Assembly (NCBI GenBank): GCA_020248985.1
Contig: JADCGL010000030.1
Coordinates: 100,600-164,599, forward strand
Reading direction: 5' to 3'
Length of the DNA stretch: 64,000 nucleotides
DNA from: Telmatospirillum sp.
GTDB lineage: Bacteria; Pseudomonadota; Alphaproteobacteria; CACIAM-22H2
Notes under the pieces: generated by a model
Told to the model about the DNA's origin: nothing
The model's input: the letters and a program-made list of their open reading frames with translations, nothing else
Databases searched by the model: none
Made by a program: the position numbers and the translations under genes
Shown here: positions 22,241 to 63,532 of the stretch, in pieces
Position numbering within the stretch: position 1 is the stretch's first letter
Layout of the letters: each line of letters begins with the position of its first letter

Positions 22241-25200
22241 TCAGAAGTAGATAAAGGCGCCGTCCGAGTCCATGGTCGAAAGACCTGCGACCGATTGACC
22301 CAAAATCGTAACCGAGTTGCCGCTGCCCAGATTGATCACCAGATTTCCGCCGACGTCGCTCGCGGCATTCGTCACATCGGTGATCGTTGCGAAGCTCGGA
22401 TAGATCAGCAAGTTGATCTTGTCGCCGGACGCGTAGTCCACGATCGTGTCGGCCCCCGCGGACAACAAGAATGTGTCGTTGCCCGCACCCCCGGTCATGC
22501 GGTCGCTGCCGCCCTCGCCGTTCAGCACATCGTTGCCGTCGCCGCCCGTGATGGTGTCGTTGCCGGCCCCGCTGCTGATGCGCACGCCGACGCTGCCGGT
22601 CACGGCGATCGTGTCGTTGCCGGCACCCGAGACGATCGTTTCGACGTTCGAAACGGTCACGGTATTGGCCGAGCTTGCAAGCGTGAGCCGGGCGTTGCCG
22701 TCGCCAAGATCGACCGTACCGCTGGTGAGAGAGCTGCCCCGCGTAACCGTGTCGTTGCCGGAATCGCCGACGATGGTTTCGATGTTGGTGAGCGTGACCG
22801 TGTTGTTGCCGTTGAACAGCGTCAGGCTGTCGTTGCCGGTGCCCAGATTGAAGGTCTGGCCGCCGGTGAAGGCCGCCCCCAGCGTCACGTTGTCGCTGCC
22901 GGTGCCGCCGACCAGCGTTTCGACGTTCGTGACGGTCAGCGTATTGGTGAAATTGCCGAGCGCCAGGCGATCGCTGCCGGCTCCCAGATCCACAAGACCC
23001 GCCGTGATCGCCGTCGACAGCACAATCGAGTCGTTTCCGGCCAAGCCGGTCAGCGTTTCGACGTTCGAAATCGAGATCGTGTTGGCGCCGTTGAAAAGGA
23101 TGAGTTGGTCGTTGCCGGCGCCGAGATCAACGAGCCCGCTCGTGCGCGCACTGCCGAGCGACACCGTATCGTCGCCCGTGCCGCCGATGACGGTCTCGAT
23201 GTTGATCACGGTGATCGAGTTGCCGCCGTCCGCCAGGGTGAGGCGATCGTTGCCCGCTGCAAGGTCGATCGTCTCGCCCGCCGTGTAGGTGGTTCCAAGC
23301 GTGATGTTGTCGGCGTTGGTGCCACCGATCAGCACTTCGACGTTAATGAGCGTCAGCGTATTGGCGAAATTTCCCAGGATCAGCCGGTCGGTCCCTGCCC
23401 CGAGATCGATGGTGCCCGAGGTGATCGTCGAACCGAGTGTGACCGTATCAGCGCCGAGGCCGCCAATGATCGTCTCGATGTTGGTGAGCGTCACCGTGTT
23501 GCCGGTGTCGGCGAGCGTGAGCCGGTCGCTGCCGGTTCCGAGGTTGAATGTCTCGCCGCCCGTGAACGACGCGCCGAACGTCACATCGTCGGCACCCGTG
23601 CCGCCGATGACCGTTTCGACGTTGATGACCGTGACGGTATTCGTGAAATTGCCGAGCACCAAGCGGTCGCTGCCGCCGGCCAAATCGATGGTGCCGTTGG
23701 TGATGCCGGCCCCCAGCACGATCGTGTCGTTGCCGGCTGCGGCCGTAATTGTCTCGACGTTGACGATGGTCAGCGTGTTGTTGCCATTGAACAGCACGAG
23801 GTTGTCGTTGCCCGCACCCAGATCGATGGTGCCGCTGCTACGCGCCGTCCCCATCGTGACCGTGTCGTCACCCGAACCGCCGATGATCGTCTCGATATTG
23901 GTGACCGTGAGCGTGTTGCCGCCAGCCGCAAGCGTCAGTCGGTCCGAGCCCGCGCCGAGATCGACCGTTTCGCCGGCCGTCAATGCGCTGCCCAGCGCGA
24001 TCGTGTCGGAATTAGCGCCGCCGACGATCACTTCGACGTTCACGATCGTGAGATTGTTGACAAAATTGCTCAAGATTAGGCGGTCTGCACCATCGCCCAG
24101 ATCGATGGTGCCGCTCGACACGCCGGTGCCGAGCGTCACCGTATCGGTTGAGATCCCACCAACGATGGTCTCAATGTTCGCAACAGTGATCGTGTTGGCG
24201 TAGTCGCCGAGGATCAGGCGGTCGTTGCCGGTTCCCAGATTGAAACTTTCTCCGCCAGCAAAGGCGGCGCCCAGCGTAACCGTGTCGGCAGCCGTTCCGC
24301 CGACGACTGTTTCGATGTTCAGCACCGTGACGGTGTTGGCGAAGTTGCCCAAGGCAAGACGGTCGGTTCCCGCCGCAAGATCGATCGTACCGTCGGTGAG
24401 CTGCGTGGCGAAAGCGATCGTGTCGTTGCCCGCAGCAGCGGTGACAGTCTCGATATTGGCGAGCGTGATCGTGTTGTTGCCGTTGAACAGGATGAGATTG
24501 TCGTTGCCTGCCGCGAGATCGACGGTGCCGGTCGTGCGCACCGTTCCAAGCGTGACGGTGTCGTCGCCCGAACCGCCGATGATGGTTTCGATATTGACGA
24601 TCGTGATCGTGTTGCCGCCGGCCGCGAGTGTCAGGCGGTCCGCGCCGTTGCCGAGATCGATGGTCTCGCCGGCCGTGTAGGCCGTGCCGAGGGTCACATT
24701 GTCGCCGCTCGTCCCACCGGTCAGAACTTCGACATTGATGATCGTCAGCGTGTTCGAGAAATTGCCCAGAACCAGCGTGTCGGTACCGCCGCCCAGATCG
24801 ATGGTACCGCTTGTGATCGCGTTGCCAAGCGTCACCGTATCTGCCGCAAGCCCGCCGACGATCGTCTCGATATTGACGAGCGTCACGCTATTGCCGGTGT
24901 CGGCCAGCGCCAGACGGTCGTTGCCTGCACCGAGATTGAAAGTTTCGCCCGCGTTATAGGAGGCGCCCAACGTGACGTCGTCGGTGCCGGTACCGCCGAC
25001 CAGCGTTTCGATGTTGATGACGGTGAGCGTGTTCGTGAAATTGCCCAGCGTCAGCCGGTCGTTGCCCCCTGCAAGGTCGATCGTGCCGTTCGTGATGCCC
25101 GTCGACAGCGTGATCGTGTCGTTGCCGGCATTGGCCGTGATCGTCTCGACGTTGGCGATCGTGAGCGTATTGTTGGCGTTGGCGAGGATCAGCGTGTCGT

Positions 25201-28200
25201 TGCCCGCAACCAGATCGACGAGGCCGCTCGTGCGCGCGCTGCCAAGCGTCACGGTGTCGTCGCCCGAGCCGCCGACGACCGTTTCAATGTTCGTCGCTGT
25301 GATCGAGTTGCCGCCCGTCGCGAGCGTGAGACGGTCGGCTCCGCCCGCAAGGTCGATGACCTCGCCCGAATTGTAGGACGAGCCGAGCGTCACCGTGTCG
25401 GCACCCGCCCCACCGGTCAAAGTTTCGACGTTGAGGATCGTAAGGCCGTTCGAGAAGGCGCCGAGAATGAGCTGGTCGTTGCCGTTGCCGAGATCGATGG
25501 TGCCCGAGGTGATCGTGGTGCCGAGCGTGATCGTGTCGTCGCCGTTGCCGCCGACGATCGCTTCGATATTTACGATCGTGATGTTGTTGCCGAGATCGGA
25601 CAGGATCAGGCGATCGGTGCCGCCGCCCAGATTGAAGGTCTCGCCGCCCGTATAGGCTGCCGCCAGCGTGACGGTGTCGTTGCCCGAACCGCCGATCAGG
25701 CTCTCGATATTCTGGATCGTGAGCGTGTTCGCGAAATTGCCGAGCACGAGCCGGTCGGCGCCGCTGCCGAGATCGTAGGAGCCCGCTGTCACCGAACTCG
25801 AGAGCGTGACGGTATCGTTGCCGCTATTGCCGATTACGGTTTCTGCGTTGGCGATCGTCAACGTGTTGTTGCCCGATCCGAGCGTAACCTGGTCGTTGCC
25901 GCCGGCAAGGTCGATCAAGCCCGCCGTGCGCGCCACGGCGAGCGTGACGCTGTCGTCGCCCGTACCGCCGACGACGGTTTCAATATTCGTAGCCGTGATC
26001 GCGTTGCCGCCGGCGGCCAGGGTCAGTCGGTCGTTGCCGCCGCCCAGATCGAACGTTTCGCCGCTGCTGTAGCTGTTGCCGAGCGTGATGTTGTCGGCAG
26101 CCGTACCGCCGACGATACCTTCGATGTTCGTGGCCGTGAACGTGTTGGCGAAGTTCCCGAGAATGAGCTGGTCGTTGCCGCCGCCAAGATCGTAGGTGCC
26201 CGAGACGACCGCCGTTCCGAGCGTGACCGTGTCGTCGCCCGAACCGCCGACGACGGTTTCAATATTGATCAGCGTCACGCGATTTCCGGCATTGTCGAGC
26301 ACAATACGGTCGTTGCCGAGGCCAAGATTGAAAGTCTCGCCGCCCGTATACGCAGCGCCAAGGGTCACGTTGTCGGCGCCTGTGCCGCCGACGAGGGTCT
26401 CGATGTTGTAGATGGTCAGCGTGTTCGAGAAATTGCCGAGAATGAGTTTGTCGTTGCCGTCGAGCAAATCGACCACGCCATTGACGACCGCCGAAGAGAA
26501 CGAAATCGTGTCGTTGCTCGCGGACGCGATCAGCGTTTCGACGTTGCTGATGGCGATCGAATTGTTGCCCTCGGACAGAATCAGCTGGTCGTTGCCGGCG
26601 CCCAAATCGATCGATCCGGTCGTGACGACAGAACCCAGCGTGACCGTGTCGTCGCCGCTGCCGCCGATGACGGTCTCGATGTTCAAGACCGAAACCGTGT
26701 TGCCGCCCGCTGCAAGCGTGAGACGGTCGTTGCCGGCGCCGAGATCGAAGAGTTCGCCATTGGCGAACGCGGTGCCGAGCGTGACGTTGTCGTTGCCGAC
26801 GCCGCCGGTAATCGTCTCGACATTGACGATCGTGACCGTGTTTGCGGAATCGCCGAGAATGAGCTGGTCGTTGCCGTCGCCGAGATCGATCGAGCCCGAG
26901 GTGACGACCGAGGCGAGCGAAACGGTGTCGTCGCCCGTGCCGCCGACCAGCGATTCGACGTTGCCGACCGTGATCGTGTTGCTGCTGTCGCCGAGTTGCA
27001 GACGGTCGCTGCCGGCGCCGAGATTGAACAACTCGCCCGCCACGTAGGCCTGGCCGAGCGTAATCGTATCCGCCCCTGTCCCGCCGATCACCGTCTCGAT
27101 GTTGTAGACCGTTGCCGTGTTCGAGAAATTGCCGAGAATCAGGCGATCGTAGCCGGCCAGCAAGTCGATCGTGCCCGAAGCGATCGCGTCGCCGAGCGTG
27201 ACGGTGTCCGCACCATCGGCCGCAACCAGCGATTCAACGCCGATGATCGTGACCGTGTTGTCGCCCAAAGCGAGATTCAGCGTATCGGTGCCCGCCCCCA
27301 GATCGACGACGCCGCCGGTCTGAGAGCCGCCGAGCGTGACGGTATCGTCGCCGGCCTGGCCGATCACCGATTCGATGCTGGTTACCGTGATCGAATTGTT
27401 CGTGTTGGCGAGCGTGAGCTTGTCGTTGCCGCCCGCGAGGTCGAAAGATTCGCCGCCGATGTAGGACTCGCCGAGCGTCACGTTGTCGTTGCCGGTTCCG
27501 CCGGTGATCGTCTCGATATTGAGGACCGTCACCGTGTTGGCGGAATCGCCCAGGATCAGGTTGTCGTTGCCGACGCCGAGGTCGATGGAGCCGGCCGTGA
27601 TAGCCGTACCCAGCGTGACCGTATCGTCGGCCGTGCCGCCGACGACAGTCTCGACGCCCGAGACCGAAATCGTGTTGCCAAGATTGCCCAGCACAAGGCG
27701 GTCGTTGCCGAGGCCGAGATTGAAATTCTCGCCGTTGGTAAAGGCCGCCCCCAGTGCGACCGTGTCGTTGGCGGTACCGCCGACCACGGTTTCGATGTTG
27801 AGCACCGTAACCGTGTTCGCGAAATTGCCGAGAATGAGACGGTCGTTGCCGTCCGACAGATCGACGGTCCCGCCGGTGAGCGCGGCACCGTAGGTGATTG
27901 TATCCGTACCTGACGTCGCGACCAGCGTCTCGACATTGAACAGCGTGAGCGTATTGAAGCCGCTCCCCAGAACGAGCGTGTCGTTGCCCGAGCCGAGATC
28001 GATGACGCCCTTGGTCTGGCCGTTGCCCAGCGTCACCGTGTCGTTGCCGGCGCGGCCCGTGATGGTTTCAGCGTTGACGATGCTGAGCGTGTTGGGGCCC
28101 GACGCCGCGAAAACGATGCGATCATTGCCGCCGCCAAGGTCGTAAAGCTCGCCTTGCGTCTGATTGCCGCCCAGCGTCACGATGTCGGAGCCCGTGCCGC

Positions 28201-29425
28201 CGATCAGCGTCTCGACGTTGACGGACGAAAAGCTGTTTGTGAAATTGCCAAGCACGAGCCGGTCGTTGTCGCCGCCCAGATCGATGGTGCCGGTCGTGAA
28301 GGCAGAGCCCAGCGTGACCGTGTCCGACAGCAGGCCGCCTGTGATCGTCTCGACATTAACGACCGAGATGATATTGACGCCATCGGCCAGGCGCAGGCGG
28401 TCGTTGCCCACACCGAGATCGATCAAAACGCCGCCCGAGGTCGCGGCCGAACCAAGCGTAATGCTGTCGTTGCCCGTGCCGCCGAGGATCGTCTCGATAT
28501 TGTAGAGCGTGGCCGTATTCGTGAAGTTACCCAGAATGAGCCGATCGTTGCCGCCCGCCAGATCCATTTCGGTGTTCGTGACCGACTGGGCCAAAGTGAT
28601 CGTGTCCGCACCGGAACTCGCGACAAGCGTTTCAACGTTGAGGATCGTGATGCTTGTTCCGAGCGCCGAAAGCGTCAGCGTATCGGCACCACCGCCGAGA
28701 TCGACGAGCCCCACCGATTGAGCCGCCGCAAGCGTCACATTGTCGATGCCTGTGCCGCCAATCACCGTTTCGATGTTGGAGACAGTGATGGTGTTGCCGT
28801 TGTTGGCAAGCACCAGTCGGTCCGTCCCGCCCAACAAATCGATATTGCCTGTCGTAATGACGGTGCCAAGCGTGATGTTGTCGTTGCCGGAATTGCCGAT
28901 CAGCGTTTCGACGTTCGTGACGGTGACGGTATTGGTGAACGTGCCGAGCACCAGCCGGTCGTTGCCGGCGCCGAGATCGATGAGGCCGCCAAGCTGCGCT
29001 CCGGCCAGCGTAACCGTATCGGCACCGGTGCCGCCGATGATCGTCTCGACATTGACGACGGTCAGCACATTGCCGCCGGTCGCAACCGTCGAACCGGTTC
29101 CGCCTGTGCCGCTCGAAGCACTGTTCGCAAGGATCAATCGGTCATTGCCGAGCCCCAGATCGATATAGCCGAGCGTTTGCGCGACGCCGAGCGTGACGGT
29201 ATCCGCACCGCCGCCGCCCAGAATCGTTTCGGCATTGGAAATCGTGAAGGAGTTGTTGGCCGTCGCGAGGCGCACGGAATCGAGGCCGGCCAACGCATCG
29301 AAGCGCCCGCCGCCGATCGACGCGCTGAAAACGACCGTATCGGCGCTTGCCGTGCCGGTTTGGGTCGTCAAGCTCGAGTAGGTAACTGCCCGCGCTGCCG
29401 TCGTCGTGGCTACTGTAGACGACAT
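22241..29425 (-). CDS. Giant repeat exoprotein with RTX-like C-terminus, 2394 aa
   Basis: One uninterrupted gene for a 2394-residue acidic Gly/Thr/Asn/Asp/Leu-rich protein. After ~60 N-terminal residues without a Sec signal (MSSTVATTTAARAVTYSSL) there are roughly 45-48 units of 46-47 residues of the form NTxTVxNVETIxGGTGxDxVTLGxxxTxGxxDLGxGNDRLxL, i.e. beta-roll-like strands with GGxGxD and GxGND turns. The last ~160 residues contain true RTX nonapeptides (GNDTITGGDGNDVLNGEGG) followed by a domain ending DGAFIYF, as in type I secretion substrates. Known RTX proteins bind calcium and leave through TolC-type exporters; no exporter genes are in the window. GGAG lies ~10 bases before ATG 29425. 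The upstream 29426-29625 stretch is AT-rich and must hold the promoter. Adhesin or matrix role is inferred only. Confidence 0.85.
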   Translation of the reverse strand: MSSTVATTTAARAVTYSSLTTQTGTASADTVVFSASIGGGRFDALAGLDSVRLATANNSFTISNAETILGGGGADTVTLGVAQTLGYIDLGLGNDRLILANSASSGTGGTGSTVATGGNVLTVVNVETIIGGTGADTVTLAGAQLGGLIDLGAGNDRLVLGTFTNTVTVTNVETLIGNSGNDNITLGTVITTGNIDLLGGTDRLVLANNGNTITVSNIETVIGGTGIDNVTLAAAQSVGLVDLGGGADTLTLSALGTSITILNVETLVASSGADTITLAQSVTNTEMDLAGGNDRLILGNFTNTATLYNIETILGGTGNDSITLGSAATSGGVLIDLGVGNDRLRLADGVNIISVVNVETITGGLLSDTVTLGSAFTTGTIDLGGDNDRLVLGNFTNSFSSVNVETLIGGTGSDIVTLGGNQTQGELYDLGGGNDRIVFAASGPNTLSIVNAETITGRAGNDTVTLGNGQTKGVIDLGSGNDTLVLGSGFNTLTLFNVETLVATSGTDTITYGAALTGGTVDLSDGNDRLILGNFANTVTVLNIETVVGGTANDTVALGAAFTNGENFNLGLGNDRLVLGNLGNTISVSGVETVVGGTADDTVTLGTAITAGSIDLGVGNDNLILGDSANTVTVLNIETITGGTGNDNVTLGESYIGGESFDLAGGNDKLTLANTNNSITVTSIESVIGQAGDDTVTLGGSQTGGVVDLGAGTDTLNLALGDNTVTIIGVESLVAADGADTVTLGDAIASGTIDLLAGYDRLILGNFSNTATVYNIETVIGGTGADTITLGQAYVAGELFNLGAGSDRLQLGDSSNTITVGNVESLVGGTGDDTVSLASVVTSGSIDLGDGNDQLILGDSANTVTIVNVETITGGVGNDNVTLGTAFANGELFDLGAGNDRLTLAAGGNTVSVLNIETVIGGSGDDTVTLGSVVTTGSIDLGAGNDQLILSEGNNSIAISNVETLIASASNDTISFSSAVVNGVVDLLDGNDKLILGNFSNTLTIYNIETLVGGTGADNVTLGAAYTGGETFNLGLGNDRIVLDNAGNRVTLINIETVVGGSGDDTVTLGTAVVSGTYDLGGGNDQLILGNFANTFTATNIEGIVGGTAADNITLGNSYSSGETFDLGGGNDRLTLAAGGNAITATNIETVVGGTGDDSVTLAVARTAGLIDLAGGNDQVTLGSGNNTLTIANAETVIGNSGNDTVTLSSSVTAGSYDLGSGADRLVLGNFANTLTIQNIESLIGGSGNDTVTLAAAYTGGETFNLGGGTDRLILSDLGNNITIVNIEAIVGGNGDDTITLGTTITSGTIDLGNGNDQLILGAFSNGLTILNVETLTGGAGADTVTLGSSYNSGEVIDLAGGADRLTLATGGNSITATNIETVVGGSGDDTVTLGSARTSGLVDLVAGNDTLILANANNTLTIANVETITANAGNDTITLSTGITNGTIDLAGGNDRLTLGNFTNTLTVINIETLVGGTGTDDVTLGASYNAGETFNLGAGNDRLALADTGNSVTLVNIETIVGGLAADTVTLGNAITSGTIDLGGGTDTLVLGNFSNTLTIINVEVLTGGTSGDNVTLGTAYTAGETIDLGNGADRLTLAAGGNTITIVNIETIIGGSGDDTVTLGTVRTTGTVDLAAGNDNLILFNGNNTITLANIETVTAAAGNDTIAFATQLTDGTIDLAAGTDRLALGNFANTVTVLNIETVVGGTAADTVTLGAAFAGGESFNLGTGNDRLILGDYANTITVANIETIVGGISTDTVTLGTGVSSGTIDLGDGADRLILSNFVNNLTIVNVEVIVGGANSDTIALGSALTAGETVDLGAGSDRLTLAAGGNTLTVTNIETIIGGSGDDTVTMGTARSSGTIDLGAGNDNLVLFNGNNTLTIVNVETITAAAGNDTIVLGAGITNGTIDLAGGSDRLVLGNFTNTVTVINVETVIGGTGADDVTFGASFTGGETFNLGTGSDRLTLADTGNTVTLTNIETIIGGLGADTVTLGSTITSGTIDLGAGTDRLILGNFANTLTLINVEVLIGGTNADNITLGTTYTAGETIDLAAGNDRLTLADGGNSITVINIETVIGGTGDDTVSLGSARTSGLVDLGAGNDQLILFNGANTISISNVETLTGLAGNDSIVLSTAITAGLVDLGAGSDRLALGNFTNTLTVTNVETLVGGTGSDNVTLGAAFTGGQTFNLGTGNDSLTLFNGNNTVTLTNIETIVGDSGNDTVTRGSSLTSGTVDLGDGNARLTLASSANTVTVSNVETIVSGAGNDTIAVTGSVGVRISSGAGNDTITGGDGNDVLNGEGGSDRMTGGAGNDTFLLSAGADTIVDYASGDKINLLIYPSFATITDVTNAASDVGGNLVINLGSGNSVTILGQSVAGLSTMDSDGAFIYF
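22630..29240 (-). repeat. Internal tandem repeat array with 696-bp higher-order period
   Basis: The repeat units of the giant protein alternate 46-47-46-47-46 residues (138+141+138+141+138 = 696 bp) and the five-unit block then recurs. A landmark in the unit whose DNA reads GTGTTGTTGCC (or a variant) sits at 23079, 23775, 24471, 25167, 25863, 26559, 27255 and 27951, exactly 696 bp apart each time. A diverged copy is found near 28646. No indel has broken the phase over about 5.6 kb. The blocks differ by many substitutions, so they are old duplications kept in register, not recent copies. Confidence 0.9.
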
Positions 29426-29625: not shown

Positions 29626-30327
29626 TCAATTCGCCTTAACGATCGCCGATGTCTGGCCAAACAGGATCTTCTTGGCAGCCTCGTCCATGGTGGGCTTGGC
29701 ATTTATGGCTGCGGCTTTGGCATAGGCGCGCTGTGTTGCCGGCCTCGCCTGGATCGTCTCGAACCAACGCTTTAGGTTTGGAAAATCCTCTAGTTTCTGC
29801 CCTTGGCGCTCATACGGTACGATCCACGGATAACACGCCATGTCGGCGATCGAGTAGTCGCCGGCAATAAACGGGCGATCTGCAAGTCTCTTATTAAGAA
29901 CACCATACAAGCGGTTTGTTTCATTAACATATCTCGAAATCGCGTAAGGGATTTTTTCGGTCGCATAGACGGCGAAATGATGGTTCTGCCCGGCCATTGG
30001 GCCAAGGCCGCCCATCTGCCAAAAGAGCCATTGCAACGTATCGGTCCGCGTCGCCAAGTCTGAAGACAGGAATTTTCCTGTTTTTTCAGCCAAATAAAGA
30101 AGTATGGCGCCGGACTCGAAAATCGAAATCGGAGCAACGCCGCCGGTCGGCGCCTGATCGACGATTGCCGGTATCCGGTTGTTCGGTGCGATCTTCAGAA
30201 AATCGGGCTGGAACTGCTCGCCCGCCCCGATATTGATCGGGATAATGCGATAGGCAAGTTCCGCCTCTTCCAAGAACATCGTCACCTTATGGCCGTTCGG
30301 CGTCGTCCAATAATAGAGATCAATCAT
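29626..30327 (-). CDS. Glutathione S-transferase, YghU/YfcG type
   Basis: A 233-residue GST. The thioredoxin-like N-terminal domain starts MIDLYYWTTPNGHKVTMFLEEAELAY, with the T-P-N-G stretch typical of nu-class (YfcG/YghU) enzymes, and includes the cis-proline region NRIPAIVD and ESGAILLYLAEKTG. The helical C-terminal domain has DRPFIAGDYSIADMACYPWI and PNLKRWFETIQARPA. Nu-class enzymes act on disulfide or peroxide substrates with two glutathiones. ATG 30327 is chosen because the 13 upstream in-frame codons lack family character. Base composition is clearly more AT-rich than neighbours, which suggests acquisition from another source. Confidence 0.9.
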   Translation of the reverse strand: MIDLYYWTTPNGHKVTMFLEEAELAYRIIPINIGAGEQFQPDFLKIAPNNRIPAIVDQAPTGGVAPISIFESGAILLYLAEKTGKFLSSDLATRTDTLQWLFWQMGGLGPMAGQNHHFAVYATEKIPYAISRYVNETNRLYGVLNKRLADRPFIAGDYSIADMACYPWIVPYERQGQKLEDFPNLKRWFETIQARPATQRAYAKAAAINAKPTMDEAAKKILFGQTSAIVKAN

Positions 30328-30469
30328 CTTTGCCTCGTTTGCATGCGTCGGCGCCAACCGCAACACGCCGCCCAGTCTATGTCAATCGGCGACGAGTTGC
30401 CGGATATTCAAGATTGATATAAAATCTGAACTTGTTGATTCAGAATACGAATCTACCGCGCGAGCCGAC

Positions 30470-31762
30470 ATGAAGAATGCCGCGTTCAAATCGACTTATC
30501 TGTTGTGGGGCTGCCTTGCGGCACTCGTGTTTCTGCCGTTGCTGACGGTCGGGCTGCTTTATCTCGGCATTTTGTCGGAGCGCGAGCGCTTTGCCGCCTA
30601 CTCGTCGGTCGCGACGCAATTGCAGGCAATTCAAGACGCAGAAGTCGATTTTTCGCTCGCACGGCGTGCGTCTCAAGCTTATCTGCGCATTGGCGACCCG
30701 GTCGATCGCGAAGCGATGCGCAGCTTGATCGAAGGCAGCCGCCAGAAAATTGCAGCAGCGCGCAGCACCGGCGGTAACGAACCGAACGACGCCATGCTGA
30801 CAGCGCTCGACGCGCAGTTGGCGCGCTACGATCAAATCTCGCAATCGATGTTCGATCTCGTCGGAAGGCGGCGCGTCCTCGTCGATCAACGCCTGCGCAC
30901 GCTTGCGAACCAGATCGACGGCGATCTTGCCGAATATGCGTCGCGCTGGCAGCGCGGCGGCCTCAACGCGGTCGCGGCCTCCCTCGCCAATGCACGTGCC
31001 GCAATCGCCGATCCGCGGCTGCGCGCGACCTATCGCCCGGAGGATCTCGCTGCCGCCGTCGCCCGCCCCCTTGCTTTGGCCGCAACTGTCGAGATTGCCG
31101 AGCCCGACGCGGCCGCAATCGTGCGGCGCGTCGAGGCCCGTCTGGCAGCCTTTGTTGCGGGCTGGCGCGAGCTGATCGAGGTCGGCGCGCAGATCGCGAG
31201 CCTGGCGGACAACGACGTGCTCGCCATCGGCCAGACCATCAGCAGCCGCTTCGAAGCGCTTGCCGATGCGTCGACGGCGCGCCAGGCGTCGCTCTACCAG
31301 GCAAGCCAGCGCGCATCGGCCGGCGACGACATGCTCGTTTCGATCGTTGCGGCCGCAACTTTGCTTGCTGCTGTCGCTGGTGCCTTTGCGGCATCGCGGC
31401 TTTTCGCCCAGCAAGCCGCGCGCATGCGCAACGAACGTGCACGGCGCAAAGCGCTCGAAACCGTCTTGTCCCAGCTTGAAGCGGCGGCAAAGAGTGGTGC
31501 GTTCGCGGCTCGCGCGCCCGAAACGGCACCGATCGCTGCCGCAATGCCCGAGCCTGAGCCCGAAGCAACGGCCGAAGTTCCAATGACCGCACCTGCGATG
31601 GCACTTGCGGTCCCGCAACCGGCCGAGCCGACGCCGCAACCGGCCGCCGCTCCGGAAGCGGTCGCGGCGCGCGCGGCCCCCAAAGGCGATCCCACCAACG
31701 ACGATCTCATCAAAATGCTGTTAGCTTCGCTGCCCGCCACGCCTGCGCGCAACGCCAATTGA
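30470..31762 (+). CDS. Two-TM receptor-like membrane protein without signalling domain
   Basis: 430 residues: TM1 at ~11-33 (LLWGCLAALVFLPLLTVGLLYL), a ~260-residue periplasmic helical region (YSSVATQLQAIQDAEVDFSLARRASQAYLRIGD and several further amphipathic helices), and TM2 at ~287-306 (MLVSIVAAATLLAAVAGAFAA). A short cytoplasmic coiled coil follows (RLFAQQAARMRNERARRKALETVLSQLEAAAK), then a ~90-residue Pro/Ala/Glu tail. The layout is that of a methyl-accepting chemotaxis sensor of the helical-bundle type, but the HAMP and methyl-accepting domains are replaced by a disordered tail. It lies 57 bp upstream of the radical SAM-OGT gene, same direction, so they may be an operon. Function unknown. 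Confidence 0.7.
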   Translation: MKNAAFKSTYLLWGCLAALVFLPLLTVGLLYLGILSERERFAAYSSVATQLQAIQDAEVDFSLARRASQAYLRIGDPVDREAMRSLIEGSRQKIAAARSTGGNEPNDAMLTALDAQLARYDQISQSMFDLVGRRRVLVDQRLRTLANQIDGDLAEYASRWQRGGLNAVAASLANARAAIADPRLRATYRPEDLAAAVARPLALAATVEIAEPDAAAIVRRVEARLAAFVAGWRELIEVGAQIASLADNDVLAIGQTISSRFEALADASTARQASLYQASQRASAGDDMLVSIVAAATLLAAVAGAFAASRLFAQQAARMRNERARRKALETVLSQLEAAAKSGAFAARAPETAPIAAAMPEPEPEATAEVPMTAPAMALAVPQPAEPTPQPAAAPEAVAARAAPKGDPTNDDLIKMLLASLPATPARNAN

Positions 31763-31819
31763 ACCGCGCATGCGGTTCGCGTACCGTGACTTGTGGCTCG
31801 CCCTTTTGCCGAATCGAAA

Positions 31820-34747
31820 ATGAATCCGTTTGTACCGCCGCAACGGCTAGCCACGCTGCAGATCGAAATCACACGCAACTGCAACCTTGCCTGTGCCGCC
31901 TGCCCGCGCACCGACGGCATGGCCGCCGGCACTTGGCGCAATACGGACATGGCGCTCGAAACATTCCGGAAGCTGGTCGACCATGCGCCACCGGCCGACC
32001 TTCTGCTGCTGGCGGGCATTGGCGAACCGGCCTTGCATCCGCAGGCAGCAGGCCTCGTCGCAGCGGCCGTCGCCACGCGCCGGTTCGGTGCTGTCGCAAT
32101 GACCAGCAACGGGCTTGCAGGCGGCCCTGAACTCTACGCGAATCTACAGAATCACGGTCTTGCCGGCCTTCGCGTCGCACTTGCATCGCTTGCCGATGCC
32201 ACAGCTGCCGCAATGCGCAAAGGAACGGACGTCGCCGCGTTGCGCGCCAATCTTGCTGCCTTGGCAAAGCTCTTCAGCAAGAATTTCGTCGTCGTCGTGC
32301 GCGTGTCGCGCCGAAATTCGGGCGAGTTGGAAAGCCTAATCGAAACACTGGCAGCACTTGGCGTGGTGCGGATTTCGATCCAGCCCGACGACCGACCTGC
32401 AATCGAAGACAGGCTCGAAAAAGGCGAGCTCGCGGCAGTTTTGGCGCAGCTCGGCACGCTGCAAGCGCGGCTTGGCAGTGCTTGCACGCTCGATTGGGCA
32501 CCCGGCCTGGCGCCCAACCAGACGAAATGCCGTCAACCGCTCGCGACGGCGTCTGTCGATATTGCGGGCAAGCTGGCGCCCTGCCCTGCGACAAGCGATG
32601 CCAGCCACTATGCCGATACGAGCCTGCGCGATCTGCGTTTTGCCGATGCCTGGACCGCTCCCGGTGTGGCCGCATGGCTATCGGCCTATCTCGACCGCGA
32701 GCCGGCCCTGTGCCGCAGCTGCGCATTCAATCCCTCGGGCAGCTTTGCAATCCCACTCGAGCCCGCCGCCGCCCAGAAAGCCGCCGTGGCTTCGATCATG
32801 GCGCAGAAATTCGATGCGGCGCAGGCGACCCTTACCGCCCTCGTCGGCGGGCCGGTGCAGGCCGACAACCTGCATCTGCTCGGCATGGTCGAATCGCACA
32901 AGGGCAACGCCGAACGCGCCGTTGCCTTCGTTGCCGCAGCCGCCGCACTCGACGGGCAAGCCCATATCCGCAATAATCTTGGTACAGTCCTCGCGAAAGC
33001 CGGGCGCCTTGCCGAAGCCGAAACCGTGCTTCGCCAACTCGTCGCCGACACGCCAAGCTATCCGACCGCCTATATCTCGCTGTCCGGCGTCTTGGCCGAC
33101 AAGGGCGAAAAACAGGCCGCCATCGCTATCCTCGTCGATCTTGCCGAACTCGCCCTCAAGGCCGGCAAACAGAACGTGGCGGGCCAAGCGGTCGATCGCA
33201 TTTTGGCCGTGGGCGAACTGCATCCGCGCTTGCCGCTGCTGGGCCATTTGCTGCGCATGGCGGGCGCACAAACGCTCGCGTTGCGCCTGTTCGAATGGCT
33301 TGCCAAGACCGATCCCAACAATCTTGGGCATCTGCTCGCGCGCGCCATGACGCTGCTGCCCGTCGCCTACGAAACCACGCCGCAGATGCAGGCGATCCGC
33401 GCGCGCTACCGCGATGCGCTCGTCGATCTGCGCGCGCGCGTGGAACGGGCCAGCGACGGCGAACTTGCGGTCGCGGGCTATCATGTCGGCCTCGCAAAGC
33501 CCTTCTATCTCGCCTACCAGGGCGAAAACGACGTCGAGCTGCAGCGCCTCTATGGCGAGATCGTCGCGCGCATGTCGGCCAAGCGCCATCCGCAATGGAT
33601 GGTGCCGGTCGCACCGCTTGCCTACGGCGGAACGCGCAAGCTGCGCGTGGGCTTTGCCAGCGGCTATTTCAGCCGCCACAGCGTTTCGAAGCTTTTTGCG
33701 GGCTGGATCCGCCATATGTCGCGCGCCAAGTTCCAAGTCATCGGCTACGACCTTGCCGAAAGCGAACCCGACGAATACGGGCGCGGCCTGCTGGCCGATT
33801 TCGACGCCGTGCGTCGCAAGGTCGACGGCATCGACAAATGGGCCGCGACGATCCGCAACGACGCGCTCGACGCGCTGATCTATCCCGAAATCGGCATGGA
33901 ATCGCAGTCCGTGCGGCTCTCCGCGCTGCGCCTTGCACCGCTGCAGATGGTCGCCATGGGCCATCCGATGACCACCGGCATCCCCAATGTCGACGTGTTC
34001 TTGACGAGCGACCTCATGGAACCCGCGGACGGCCAGGCGCACTACACCGAGCGGCTGCTGCGCCTGCCGAATCTGTCGTTCGACTACGAGCGTCAGCCCG
34101 CCGGAGGGCCTGAATTCAAGCGCGAAGAACTCGGCCTCGATCCGAAAGCAATCGTCTTCATCTGCTGCCAATCCTTGTTCAAATACCGGCCCGACGACGA
34201 CGACGTGATCGTGCGCATCGCGCGCGAAGTGCCCAACGCGCAATTCGCGTTTCTGGGCGTGCCGACGGCCCCCCTCACCGAAATATTCTCTGCCCGCCTC
34301 GGCGCCAAATTCACGGCGTCCGGCCTATCCTATGCCGGACGCGTGGTGATCGTGCCACCGGTCGCCTTCGAGCGCTTCGGCGCTTTCCTGCGCGCGGGCG
34401 ACATCTATCTCGACAGTCTCGGCTGGTCCGGCGGCAACACCTCGCTCGAGGCGGCCAGCGTGGGCTTGCCCATCGTCACGACGCCCGGCGGCCCGATGCG
34501 CGCGCGCCACACGGCCGCGATCCTGCAATTCATGGGTCTCGGCCACTATGTCACCCCCTCGCAGGACGCCTATGTGGTTTTTGCCGCAAAGCTCGCGGGC
34601 GATGCGGCCTTGCGCAAAGCCTATGCGGGCGAAATCGCGCTCAATGCCGACAAATTGTTCGGCGATTTGTCGCCCGTGCGCGCGATCGAGAATTTCATCG
34701 TCGAGGAAATTTCCGCCCGCGAGCGGCTTCAGAGCCCTAGCGCCTAG
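31820..34747 (+). CDS. Radical SAM - TPR - GT41 (OGT-like) fusion protein, 975 aa
   Basis: Three modules in one chain. Residues ~10-305 are a radical SAM domain: the 4Fe-4S motif C21-x3-C25-x2-C28 in RNCNLACAACPRTDG, GIGEPALHP (the GGEP-like SAM motif) and SNGLAG, then C237, C255, C298 and C301 as a SPASM-like auxiliary cluster set. Residues ~320-500 are TPR-like helices (AHIRNNLGTVLAKAGRLAEAETVLRQL). Residues ~605-965 resemble the catalytic domain of O-GlcNAc transferase/SPINDLY: GFASGYFSRHSVSKL (H620), HPMTTGIPNVDVFLTSD, FICCQSLFKYRP (K788) and YLDSLGWSGGNTSLEAASVGLPIVTTPGG. Start is ATG 31820, or GTG 31793 nine codons upstream. The combination is unusual; a two-step peptide modification is inferred, not shown. 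The 3' end overlaps the converging SGNH gene by 11 bp. Confidence 0.85.
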   Translation: MNPFVPPQRLATLQIEITRNCNLACAACPRTDGMAAGTWRNTDMALETFRKLVDHAPPADLLLLAGIGEPALHPQAAGLVAAAVATRRFGAVAMTSNGLAGGPELYANLQNHGLAGLRVALASLADATAAAMRKGTDVAALRANLAALAKLFSKNFVVVVRVSRRNSGELESLIETLAALGVVRISIQPDDRPAIEDRLEKGELAAVLAQLGTLQARLGSACTLDWAPGLAPNQTKCRQPLATASVDIAGKLAPCPATSDASHYADTSLRDLRFADAWTAPGVAAWLSAYLDREPALCRSCAFNPSGSFAIPLEPAAAQKAAVASIMAQKFDAAQATLTALVGGPVQADNLHLLGMVESHKGNAERAVAFVAAAAALDGQAHIRNNLGTVLAKAGRLAEAETVLRQLVADTPSYPTAYISLSGVLADKGEKQAAIAILVDLAELALKAGKQNVAGQAVDRILAVGELHPRLPLLGHLLRMAGAQTLALRLFEWLAKTDPNNLGHLLARAMTLLPVAYETTPQMQAIRARYRDALVDLRARVERASDGELAVAGYHVGLAKPFYLAYQGENDVELQRLYGEIVARMSAKRHPQWMVPVAPLAYGGTRKLRVGFASGYFSRHSVSKLFAGWIRHMSRAKFQVIGYDLAESEPDEYGRGLLADFDAVRRKVDGIDKWAATIRNDALDALIYPEIGMESQSVRLSALRLAPLQMVAMGHPMTTGIPNVDVFLTSDLMEPADGQAHYTERLLRLPNLSFDYERQPAGGPEFKREELGLDPKAIVFICCQSLFKYRPDDDDVIVRIAREVPNAQFAFLGVPTAPLTEIFSARLGAKFTASGLSYAGRVVIVPPVAFERFGAFLRAGDIYLDSLGWSGGNTSLEAASVGLPIVTTPGGPMRARHTAAILQFMGLGHYVTPSQDAYVVFAAKLAGDAALRKAYAGEIALNADKLFGDLSPVRAIENFIVEEISARERLQSPSA

Positions 34748-35585
34748 ACGCAAAACCTGCTGTGCGCGCGGCCTCTGGCTTTGGCGCATCGGCCTTGGGC
34801 GCATAAGCGGCGATCGCCTGCGCCAGAACGCGCGACAGACAATAATAGCTCGTATCGGTCATGTGCAGACCGTCGCTGCCGATCAATTCGTCGGGCCTGA
34901 AAGCGCCGCTCTGCATCCAATGCGTCATGATGCGGAAGCGCGGAAAAATCGGCACGTCCTTGACGCGTGAGATCAGCATCATGTGGTCGGAAAACTGGCG
35001 GCGATGCGGCGCGTTGACGTAGCGCGGCGCATTCTGCGGGCCCATCATCATCACGTCGATGCCGTGTTTGCGCGCGATGTCGATGCCCACCGACATGTTT
35101 TCGACGAACTGTTCGAGCGGCCAGCCTTTGATCGCGGCATTAACGCCCGCCTGCCAGATCAGCAGATCGGGCTCGATCGCCAACACGTCGCGCTCGAAGC
35201 GCGCGAGCATCTGCCCCGCATCCTCGCCGCCGATCCCCTTGTTGTGCACCGTGATGGCAATGTTCGGGAACAGCGCGTGCAACTCGGCTTCGAGCCTTTC
35301 GGGATAGGCGTTGGCGCGCGTGCTGGCGCCAACGCCTTCGGTCGACGACGCGCCAAGTGCAACGATGGTCAGCTGCTTGCCTTCCGCAAGGCGCTGGGAC
35401 ACCAGCGGCATCGGATGCTGCAGGCGGCTGAATTCGGCAGGCACGTCGCAGCGCATTGCGAATTTTTCGACGTCGCCCGTCATCGCCGGCACGACAGGCG
35501 TGTGCACGACCGCGCGGTCTGCAGCGACCGCGGGCAACCCGAGCGTCAGAGCGGCAAACAAGGCCAAGCGGGTCAAACGACTCAT
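34737..35585 (-). CDS. Exported SGNH/GDSL-family hydrolase
   Basis: A 282-residue periplasmic or secreted esterase-like protein with signal peptide MSRLTRLALFAALTLGLPAVAA. SGNH blocks: block I IVALGASSTEGVGAS with nucleophile Ser in GASS, block II NKGIGGEDAGQ (Gly), block III LLIWQAGVNAAI with the Asn, and block V SDGLHMTD with the Asp-x2-His pair. All catalytic residues are present. Known relatives remove or transfer acyl groups on polysaccharides, lipids or peptidoglycan; the substrate here is unknown. The gene converges on the radical SAM-OGT gene (11-bp overlap) and is divergent from the binding-protein gene. Confidence 0.85.
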   Translation of the reverse strand: MSRLTRLALFAALTLGLPAVAADRAVVHTPVVPAMTGDVEKFAMRCDVPAEFSRLQHPMPLVSQRLAEGKQLTIVALGASSTEGVGASTRANAYPERLEAELHALFPNIAITVHNKGIGGEDAGQMLARFERDVLAIEPDLLIWQAGVNAAIKGWPLEQFVENMSVGIDIARKHGIDVMMMGPQNAPRYVNAPHRRQFSDHMMLISRVKDVPIFPRFRIMTHWMQSGAFRPDELIGSDGLHMTDTSYYCLSRVLAQAIAAYAPKADAPKPEAARTAGFASRR

Positions 35586-61661: not shown

Positions 61662-63532
61662 CGCTCGGCCGGAACCGGCGACACGGGCGCGTCGGCCGCT
61701 TCGATGCGCGCTTGGGCTTCGCGCGTTTCGAGCTGGCGGCGCCACATCTGCGCGTAGACGCCGTCGGCCGCCAGCAGATCGGCATGGGTCCCGCGCTCGA
61801 CGACCTGGCCCTTGTCGAGCACCACGATCTGGTCGGCATCGACCACAGTCGACAGGCGGTGCGCGATAACGAGCGTGGTAACCCCCGCCGAAATTTGGCG
61901 CAGCGAATCCTGGATCTCTTTTTCGGTGCGCGTGTCGAGCGCGCTGGTCGCTTCGTCGAACACGAGCACTTTCGGGCGCTTCAAGATCGTGCGCGCGATC
62001 GACACGCGCTGGCGCTCGCCGCCCGAAAGCTTGAGGCCGCGTTCGCCGACACGCGATTTGTAGCCGTCAGGCAGCGCCATCACGAAATCGTGGATGCGCG
62101 CGAGCTTGGCCGCCTCTTCCACTTCCGCGCGCGTGGCCGACGGGCGCCCATAGGCGATGTTGTAGTAGATCGTGTCGTTGAACAGCACGGTGTCCTGCGG
62201 CACGATGCCGATCGCGGCGCGCACCGAGCTTTGCGTCACGTCGCGGATGTCCTGGCTGTCGATGCGGATCGCCCCGCTGTCGATGTCGTAGAAGCGGAAC
62301 AGCAGGCGCGAGATCGTCGATTTGCCGGCTCCGCTCGAGCCGACGATCGCGAGCGTCTTGCCGGCCGGCACGTCGATGTCGAGCCCGTGCAGGATCTGCC
62401 GGCGCGCATCGTAGCCGAAGCCGACATTCTCGAAGCGCACATGGCCGCCGGCGACGGCAAGATCGGGTGCTCCCGGCTTGTCGAGAATCTCGGCTTGCGC
62501 ATGCAGCAGGCGGAACATCGACTGCATATCGATCAGGGCCTGGCGCACTTCGCGATAGACCATGCCGAGGAAATTGAGCGGCAAATAAAGCTGGATGAGA
62601 TAGGCGTTCACGAGCACGAAGCCGCCCACGGTCATGCTGCCTGCCGCCACCATCTGGGCTGCGAGCCACATGACACCCGTGAGCCCGACCGCGATCACGA
62701 AGCCTTGCCCGACATTGAGCAGCGACAGCGACGTCTTCGAAAGCACGGCGGCTTTTTCGTAGGCGTCGAGCGATTTGTCGAAGCGCTGGGCTTCGTGGCG
62801 CTCGTTGCCGAAATATTTGACGGTTTCGTAGTTGAGCAAACTGTCGACCGCTTTGGTCGAAGCTTCGCCCTCGGCTTCGAGCATCGCGCGCCGATAGCGC
62901 AGGCGCCACGCCGTGATCGCGAAGGTGTAGGCGACGTAGAGCACGATCGTCGTGAAGGTGATCGCGGCAAAGCGCCAGTCGTAGAGATACCAGAGCATGC
63001 CGCAGACCATCGCGATCTCGAGGATCGTCGGCACGATCTGGAACAGCATGAAATGCAGCAGATTCTCGATGCCGGCCGTCCCGCGTTCGATGGCGCGGTT
63101 GAGCCCGCCCGTCTGCCGGTCGAGATGGAAGCGCAAGGAGAGTCGATGCAGATGCTGGAAGGTCTCGAGGGCTACCTGGTGCATTGCCTGGTGCGCGACG
63201 CGCGCGAACACAATTTCGCGCAGTTCGGTGAAGACCTGGCTCACCACGCGCGCACCCCCGTACGCGAGCACGAATCCGACCGCGACCGACAAGGCGATCT
63301 CGGCCCCACCCGCACTCGACAGCGCATCGACAGCCTGTTTGTAGAACAGCGGAATCACGATCGTCGCGAGCTTGGCGCCGACGAGCAGCACCACCGCCGA
63401 CAGAACGCGTATGCGGATTTCGGGACGGCCCTTGGGCCACAGATACGGCAAAAGCCGCAAAAGCGCGCGGGATTCGCCGGCCGCCTGGACACCGGGGACA
63501 TGGAGAGGATCAGCAGGGCCGACGCGACGCAT
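61658..63532 (-). CDS. Atm1-type ABC exporter (TM-ATPase half transporter)
   Basis: 624-residue half transporter with six TM helices at ~35-310 and an ATPase domain at ~360-600 (Walker A GSSGAGKST, Q-loop IGIVPQDTVLFNDTIYYNIAYG, signature LSGGERQRVSIARTIL, Walker B VLVFDEATSALDTRTEKEIQDSL, His in IAHRLSTV). STKAVDSLLNYETVKYFGNERHEAQRFDKSLDAYEKAA is the Atm1/HMT1 family fingerprint. Known Atm1 homologues export glutathione or metal-thiol conjugates from the cytoplasm. Converges on thiY with a four-base overlap. The long N-terminal tail MRRVGPADPLHVPGVQAAGES is typical of bacterial members. Confidence 0.93.
   Translation of the reverse strand: MRRVGPADPLHVPGVQAAGESRALLRLLPYLWPKGRPEIRIRVLSAVVLLVGAKLATIVIPLFYKQAVDALSSAGGAEIALSVAVGFVLAYGGARVVSQVFTELREIVFARVAHQAMHQVALETFQHLHRLSLRFHLDRQTGGLNRAIERGTAGIENLLHFMLFQIVPTILEIAMVCGMLWYLYDWRFAAITFTTIVLYVAYTFAITAWRLRYRRAMLEAEGEASTKAVDSLLNYETVKYFGNERHEAQRFDKSLDAYEKAAVLSKTSLSLLNVGQGFVIAVGLTGVMWLAAQMVAAGSMTVGGFVLVNAYLIQLYLPLNFLGMVYREVRQALIDMQSMFRLLHAQAEILDKPGAPDLAVAGGHVRFENVGFGYDARRQILHGLDIDVPAGKTLAIVGSSGAGKSTISRLLFRFYDIDSGAIRIDSQDIRDVTQSSVRAAIGIVPQDTVLFNDTIYYNIAYGRPSATRAEVEEAAKLARIHDFVMALPDGYKSRVGERGLKLSGGERQRVSIARTILKRPKVLVFDEATSALDTRTEKEIQDSLRQISAGVTTLVIAHRLSTVVDADQIVVLDKGQVVERGTHADLLAADGVYAQMWRRQLETREAQARIEAADAPVSPVPAER

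Follow-up and report, generated by a model that had tools for sequence, protein, structure and literature searches.

A single gene in a 64,000-nucleotide stretch of Telmatospirillum sp. DNA (contig JADCGL010000030.1, positions 100,600 to 164,599; hereafter the window) encodes a polypeptide in which a radical SAM domain with a short SPASM-type region is joined, through a stack of tetratricopeptide repeat (TPR) type helices, to a GT41 glycosyltransferase domain. We tentatively put forward that this fusion is a two-step, TPR-guided, cytosolic protein-modifying enzyme, a reading that we regard as plausible rather than probable. The open frame extends from 31793 to 34747, and the ATG at 31820 gives a protein of 975 residues with the following layout:

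31820..34747, + strand: fusion gene, 975 residues, in the order radical SAM, SPASM, TPR, GT41 (open frame, Pfam, homologues, predicted model)
31820..32509, + strand: radical SAM core, residues 1-230
32510..32749, + strand: short SPASM-type domain, residues 231-310, with C237, C255, C298 and C301 (cysteines in 18/18 aligned fusions)
32756..33310, + strand: TPR-type helix stack, residues about 313-497 (Pfam and predicted model)
33320..34729, + strand: GT41 glycosyltransferase domain, residues about 501-970 (Pfam, alignments with SPINDLY (SPY) and OGT, fold matches)

Both catalytic domains are recognized by Pfam: Radical_SAM (PF04055) matches residues 15-159 with 41.5 bits against a cut-off of 29.5, and Glyco_transf_41 (PF13844) matches in two stretches with 72.2 bits against a cut-off of 25. 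TPR models fall at about residues 350-440, every one under its own cut-off. The SPASM model (PF13186) covers residues 237-301 with 13.9 bits, under its cut-off of 21.5, whereas it exceeds this cut-off in a standalone radical SAM homologue (L043, see below). In the predicted structure (mean predicted local distance difference test score, pLDDT, of 86.7) residues 313-972 resemble OGT and SPY, while residues 1 to about 311 resemble radical SAM/SPASM enzymes. The open frame, the Pfam matches, the recovery of both folds and the cysteines described below all bear out the original prediction, which had placed a radical SAM domain with SPASM-like cysteines, TPR helices and a GT41 domain in one polypeptide and had proposed structure prediction as a check. 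Among 25 of 31 NCBIfam matches, no named radical SAM maturase family scored above its cut-off, the highest being TIGR04311, at 68.8 against 400.

Residue conservation was assessed in an 18-row alignment of the window protein with 17 full-length fusion clusters. The main motifs are:

31880..31903, + strand: CX3CX2C [4Fe-4S]/S-adenosylmethionine (SAM) motif, C21, C25 and C28 (invariant, 18/18)
33677..33679, + strand: H620, aligned with human OGT H558 (invariant, 18/18)
34181..34183, + strand: K788, aligned with human OGT K842 and SPY position 665 (invariant, 18/18)
34430..34441, + strand: G-G-N-T motif at residues 871-874, shared with the flagellin-linked paralogue described below

The SPASM-type cysteines, C237-x12-G250-x4-C255 followed by C298-x2-C301, fit the pattern CX9-15GX4C then CX2C and are likewise invariant (18/18). 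The full SPASM form is a seven-cysteine motif; the window protein has only four of these cysteines. G66, G68, E69, N97 and N166 of the radical SAM core are also invariant. In the glycosyltransferase half, HMMER alignments place H620 and K788 at positions 568 and 852 of 7yea, whose numbering is the usual human OGT numbering plus 10, hence H558 and K842; we take both to be catalytically important residues of OGT. The earlier claim that the key His and Lys of GT41 are kept is therefore upheld, and the possibility it had left, that the catalytic residues might not align, falls away. The glycine-rich motif reads GGNT in the fusion and GTTT in SPY, so that the sugar donor cannot be inferred from it. 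Gene content did not point to a donor either: NeuB, considered as an indicator, is present in 11/11 genus genomes and does not track the fusion.

We found the full-length fusion in four of the 61 genomes searched, namely the genome of origin and three of its ten genus-mates (70-90% identity), and a profile of the radical SAM part alone recovered the same four carriers among 23 genomes of the family. Two carriers are public metagenome-assembled contigs labelled Rhodospirillaceae bacterium and Asaia bogorensis (the latter label being doubtful); the scan of named genome contigs gave two carriers only. In a set of 5.8 billion proteins, 43 of the 7,990 scored candidates matched at 1e-10 and 17 of these cover 98-100% of the query, providing 17 further full-length fusion clusters with 39-93% identity to the window protein; a profile search at 1e-60 (26 matches among scored candidates) yielded no fusion beyond them. 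An assembly artefact, which absence from all relatives would have implied, is thus ruled out by full-length fusions in 4/11 genus genomes and in the 17 protein clusters. With at most five candidates scored per genome, a class sample gave matches at 1e-20 in 5/385 genomes, with a fusion-sized frame in the genome of origin only, and a phylum sample gave a match at 1e-40 in 1/398, again the genome of origin. A plasmid-borne fusion was also considered and rejected, as none of 88 matching plasmid records spanned 80% of the query. By their source names, related fragments point to Rhodospirillales (P0048, P0058) and Acetobacteraceae (P0054), and JGI machine annotation names both domains for P0009 and P0017.

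In a tree of 46 GT41 domains all 18 fusions lie on one side of a single branch (support 100/99), and their neighbour is a clade of TPR-GT41 proteins without a radical SAM domain, the two clades being joined at 92/89. The gene of this sister clade adjoins flagellin in all ten genus loci examined, those of the genome of origin and nine genus-mates (G007 was left out, and the flagellin is cut by a contig end in four of the ten). The sister genes of G002, G003 and G004 were not rows of the tree and are 76-91% identical to that of the genome of origin. A common origin with a flagellin-type glycosyltransferase is the most likely history of the fusion's glycosyltransferase half, and the non-fused sister enzyme probably has flagellin as its client. 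In G004 the flagellin-linked GT41 gene (G004:C38:4918-6360, - strand) carries one in-frame TGA, either a real break or an assembly error. GT41 matches occupy 17 open frames of the genome of origin (33 matches, grouped by us). The same genome has a tandem TPR-GT41-TPR-GT41 protein of 1262 residues (L066:5842-9630, - strand) and two genes (L070:4133-6703, + strand; L073:6616-8889, - strand) in which an alpha/beta-hydrolase is joined to the GT41 C-terminal lobe with no TPR matches at 1e-3. GT41 modules seem to have been combined with several enzymes in this genome.

The radical SAM half is part of a larger subfamily, as yet uncharacterised, in which G-[IV]-G-E-P-x-x-H is kept in 22/22 aligned rows. 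Its members occur alone, after TPRs (P0050, P0056, P0077) or before TPRs (P0044 and P0046, which may be incomplete). In P0050, P0056 and P0077, TPR-type repeats precede the radical SAM/SPASM part and there is no GT41 domain (the TPR reading of P0056 is our own, from its sequence); guidance of radical SAM enzymes by TPRs may be more widespread. The standalone homologue, of 335 residues, lies near PAS/GAF and chemotaxis-type genes at L043:9608-10615 (genome G315) and L044:9862-10869 (genome G407). In G315 no glycosyltransferase was found among the four Pfam-scanned neighbours of the 13 called, and the nearest GT41 match is about 750 kb away; a GT41 of the fusion's clade was found neither in G315 (best match 32%) nor, at 1e-10, in G407, which is 72% complete. 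Elsewhere, in G374, a more distant radical SAM/SPASM gene (L047:5537-7428, - strand) and a family 2 glycosyltransferase gene share four bases in our frame calls.

The relatives of this half bear on what its target might be. In an alternative scenario the radical SAM domain would change the nucleotide-sugar or the newly attached sugar, by decarboxylation, deamination or epimerisation, and the GT41 domain would attach that sugar. The nearest solved folds do include the sugar-acting BlsE and DesII, together with the peptide-acting SkfB, SuiB, PqqE and anSME, and the top ones are tied: SkfB, SuiB and MoaA have tied fold scores, with PqqE and anSME within 1.5 of BlsE. In sequence the best match is PqqE (6.8e-12), while BlsE matches over the core only (profile positions 9-190) and DesII not at all at 0.01. 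Since the subfamily also occurs alone, as in G315, and with TPRs in proteins that have no GT41, we consider a sugar-acting domain rather unlikely. The same union of this subfamily with TPRs in the absence of GT41 makes the polypeptide, rather than the attached sugar, the likelier radical target.

The genes around the fusion offer a candidate client:

22241..29425, - strand: RTX-type repeat protein, 2394 residues, candidate client, near the fusion in 4/4 carriers
29626..30366, - strand: glutathione-dependent disulfide-bond oxidoreductase-like gene with a glutathione S-transferase (GST) fold (4/4 carriers)
30470..31762, + strand: two-transmembrane protein, 430 residues, 57 bases upstream of the fusion (3/4 carriers, missing in G004)
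34737..35585, - strand: GDSL-type lipase/acylhydrolase-like gene (4/4 carriers)

The order repeat protein, GST-like gene, fusion and GDSL-like gene is found in 4/4 carriers; the two-transmembrane protein has no Pfam match at E 0.1. The repeat protein consists mostly of units of about 46-47 residues, contains 15.4% Thr, 9.4% Asn, 6.4% Ser and no Cys, and has RTX calcium-binding repeats near its C-terminus according to Pfam. Its identification as a toxin was rejected, the NCBIfam models for RTX haemolysin, esterase and protease all scoring far under cut-off. In G002 a contig break divides the gene, and the part next to the fusion encodes the first 200 residues. The protein and many paralogues are present in the four carriers, and none of the seven other genomes of the genus has a match at 1e-10. 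Beyond the genus we found matches in G013 (5e-91) and, weakly, G022. These paralogues are very large, were seen in no genus genome other than the four carriers, and include a frame of 4004 residues in G003 (L079:6496-18510, + strand). In G000 and G002 a paralogue adjoins an ABC exporter and an HlyD-type gene, on the contig of the flagellin-linked GT41, so that type I export is plausible. G003 has the exporter genes, next to a contig end; neither paralogue nor exporter was seen in 19.9 kb of G004. Around the window's repeat gene those exporter genes have no close counterpart; what was found is a 34% ABC match at 61772-62572. Of the clients named in the original prediction, the repeat protein is the one best supported by position and is the likeliest client in the window's clade. 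The two-transmembrane protein is absent beside the fusion in G004, and flagellin is the likely client of the sister gene.

In the two-step reading, the client would be held by the TPR stack in an unfolded state, on its way to export. Its Ser/Thr (or Asn) residues would receive a sugar that the GT41 domain takes from a nucleotide-sugar, K788 and H620 lying in the active site as they do in OGT and SPY. The radical SAM domain would use its CX3CX2C cluster to cleave SAM and make a radical change on the same client, an auxiliary cluster presumably sitting on C237, C255, C298 and C301. In the window's clade the client would be the Thr/Asn-rich RTX-type repeat protein, modified before its presumed type I export.

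Several observations, gathered here and in the next two paragraphs, weigh against this proposal. One concerns a conserved motif of the radical SAM core:

32177..32185, + strand: residues 120-122, A-L-A in the window protein and S-V-D in 13 distant fusions (alignment)

This S-x-D is lost in the window protein and its four closest relatives (A-L-A, T-L-A, T-L-S, S-L-A, S-L-G). It is intact in 13/17 other fusions, that is, in 13/13 outside the window's clade, and in 21/21 other rows of the radical SAM subfamily alignment. Among solved relatives, BlsE reads SLD, SkfB SID and PqqE SVQ, so that some radical SAM enzymes can do without the Asp. Moreover, in pairs chosen by us, the divergence of the core is 1.9-2.3 times that of the GT domain within the window's clade (four pairs), against 0.71-1.0 times in other fusions (ten pairs) and 1.13 times between the window protein and P0005. 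For each of five overlapping pairs from four genomes, 0/500 bootstraps had the GT domain diverging more. The ratio of nonsynonymous to synonymous substitution rates (dN/dS) is 0.13-0.36 in the core versus 0.07-0.17 in the GT domain. Judging from these substitution patterns, the radical SAM domain in the window's clade is held by purifying selection, under different or looser demands. Loss of the Asp in 5/5 clade members and a divergence of the core about double that of the GT domain would both suit a fusion that, in this genus, is essentially a glycosyltransferase, its radical SAM domain now being structural, cluster-sensing or client-binding with weak or no radical activity, and only the distant fusions being bifunctional. 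The seven cysteines together with G66, G68, E69, N97 and N166 are nevertheless invariant, the core dN/dS is that of a constrained domain, PqqE also does without the Asp, and a faster rate fits a change of substrate as well; we judge such a reduction to be unlikely. The original prediction had overlooked both the motif loss and the faster divergence. Given these, a working radical step is less sure in the window protein than in the 13 other fusions, for which the bifunctional reading is to be trusted more.

A single radical SAM clade for the fusions was not found, the tree requiring four changes, at least two of them forced by well-supported branches, and a single clade is accordingly claimed for the GT domain only. 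The fusions are interspersed in this tree with L043, P0045, P0044 and P0046, proteins in which no GT41 part was seen. Either these proteins have lost it or the tree is unresolved; as it stands, their position indicates that the radical SAM and GT41 parts are not always needed together.

The assignment of the client has its own difficulties. The neighbourhood counts cover only the window and the three genus carriers, and the carriers form a nested clade: a control protein is 98, 97 and 90% identical in them versus 81-85% in six of the seven other genus-mates (no match in G006). The link between fusion and repeat protein may thus reflect common descent and one gain. Furthermore, the repeat gene is on the opposite strand from the fusion with two genes between them (one in G004), and G013 has a relative of the repeat protein (47%) without the fusion. 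The flagellin link, in turn, is shown for the genus only, since the sister-clade genes of G013 and G017, from other genera, have no flagellin in the 19.5 and 11.7 kb read. With the repeat-protein association so confounded by descent, one may ask whether fusion merely co-expresses two domains that serve separate clients or steps, the client being flagellin or another cytosolic protein instead of the repeat protein. The flagellin link of the sister GT41 in 10/10 genus loci fits such a view, as does the in-frame TGA of the G004 sister gene, for which the fusion could stand in. Against it, the examined genus genomes already own a flagellin-linked GT41, and the window as a whole gave no match to a flagellin query. 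We regard separate clients as improbable.

Compared with known systems, both halves of the fusion are of familiar kinds. SPINDLY, a plant O-fucosyltransferase, human OGT, XcOGT and T. terrenum OGT share with it a TPR part followed by a GT-B domain and the equivalents of H558 and K842; SPY is the best sequence match of the GT part (1.6e-33), and OGT and SPY are its best fold matches. To our knowledge, none of these four has a radical SAM/SPASM domain. PqqE, SkfB, SuiB and anSME share the fold, the CX3CX2C motif and the auxiliary-cluster cysteines of the other half, but the fusion differs from them in its short four-cysteine SPASM and its joined glycosyltransferase. To the HMW1C/NGT adhesin N-glucosyltransferases (NF049992) it scores 52.8 bits against a cut-off of 1000. 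FlmG, the Caulobacter flagellin glycosyltransferase, is described as having an N-terminal, client-binding TPR domain and a C-terminal part held to be the transferase (PMC7591256), a cytosolic arrangement that by its description resembles the one proposed for the fusion. The FlmG-type trait of a gene beside flagellin is missing from the fusion and present in its sister paralogue (10/10 genus loci). Searches of an open-access library of 5.39 million papers, which lacks most subscription papers, listed no enzyme with both a radical SAM and a glycosyltransferase domain, in agreement with the earlier claim; a review of RiPP leader proteases (PMC10885120) was the one paper to come up. Nothing there pairs SPINDLY with RTX and adhesin either. 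The pairing of radical SAM and GT41 domains is new to us, and no published study of the fusion came to light.

Radical SAM enzymes and OGT-type glycosyltransferases each modify proteins, and the fusion pairs both. It is possible, though doubtful, that it founds a class of radical SAM glycosyltransferases in which one TPR-guided polypeptide puts a radical-made change and a sugar on the same exported protein, here a surface repeat protein of 2,400 residues, and in which a single enzyme would link radical chemistry to protein glycosylation. The non-fused, flagellin-linked sister in the same genus provides a ready contrast for what the radical SAM half adds. Should both halves act on one client, the outcome would be a novel protein modification, and the enzyme might serve as a tool for setting a radical-made change beside a sugar.
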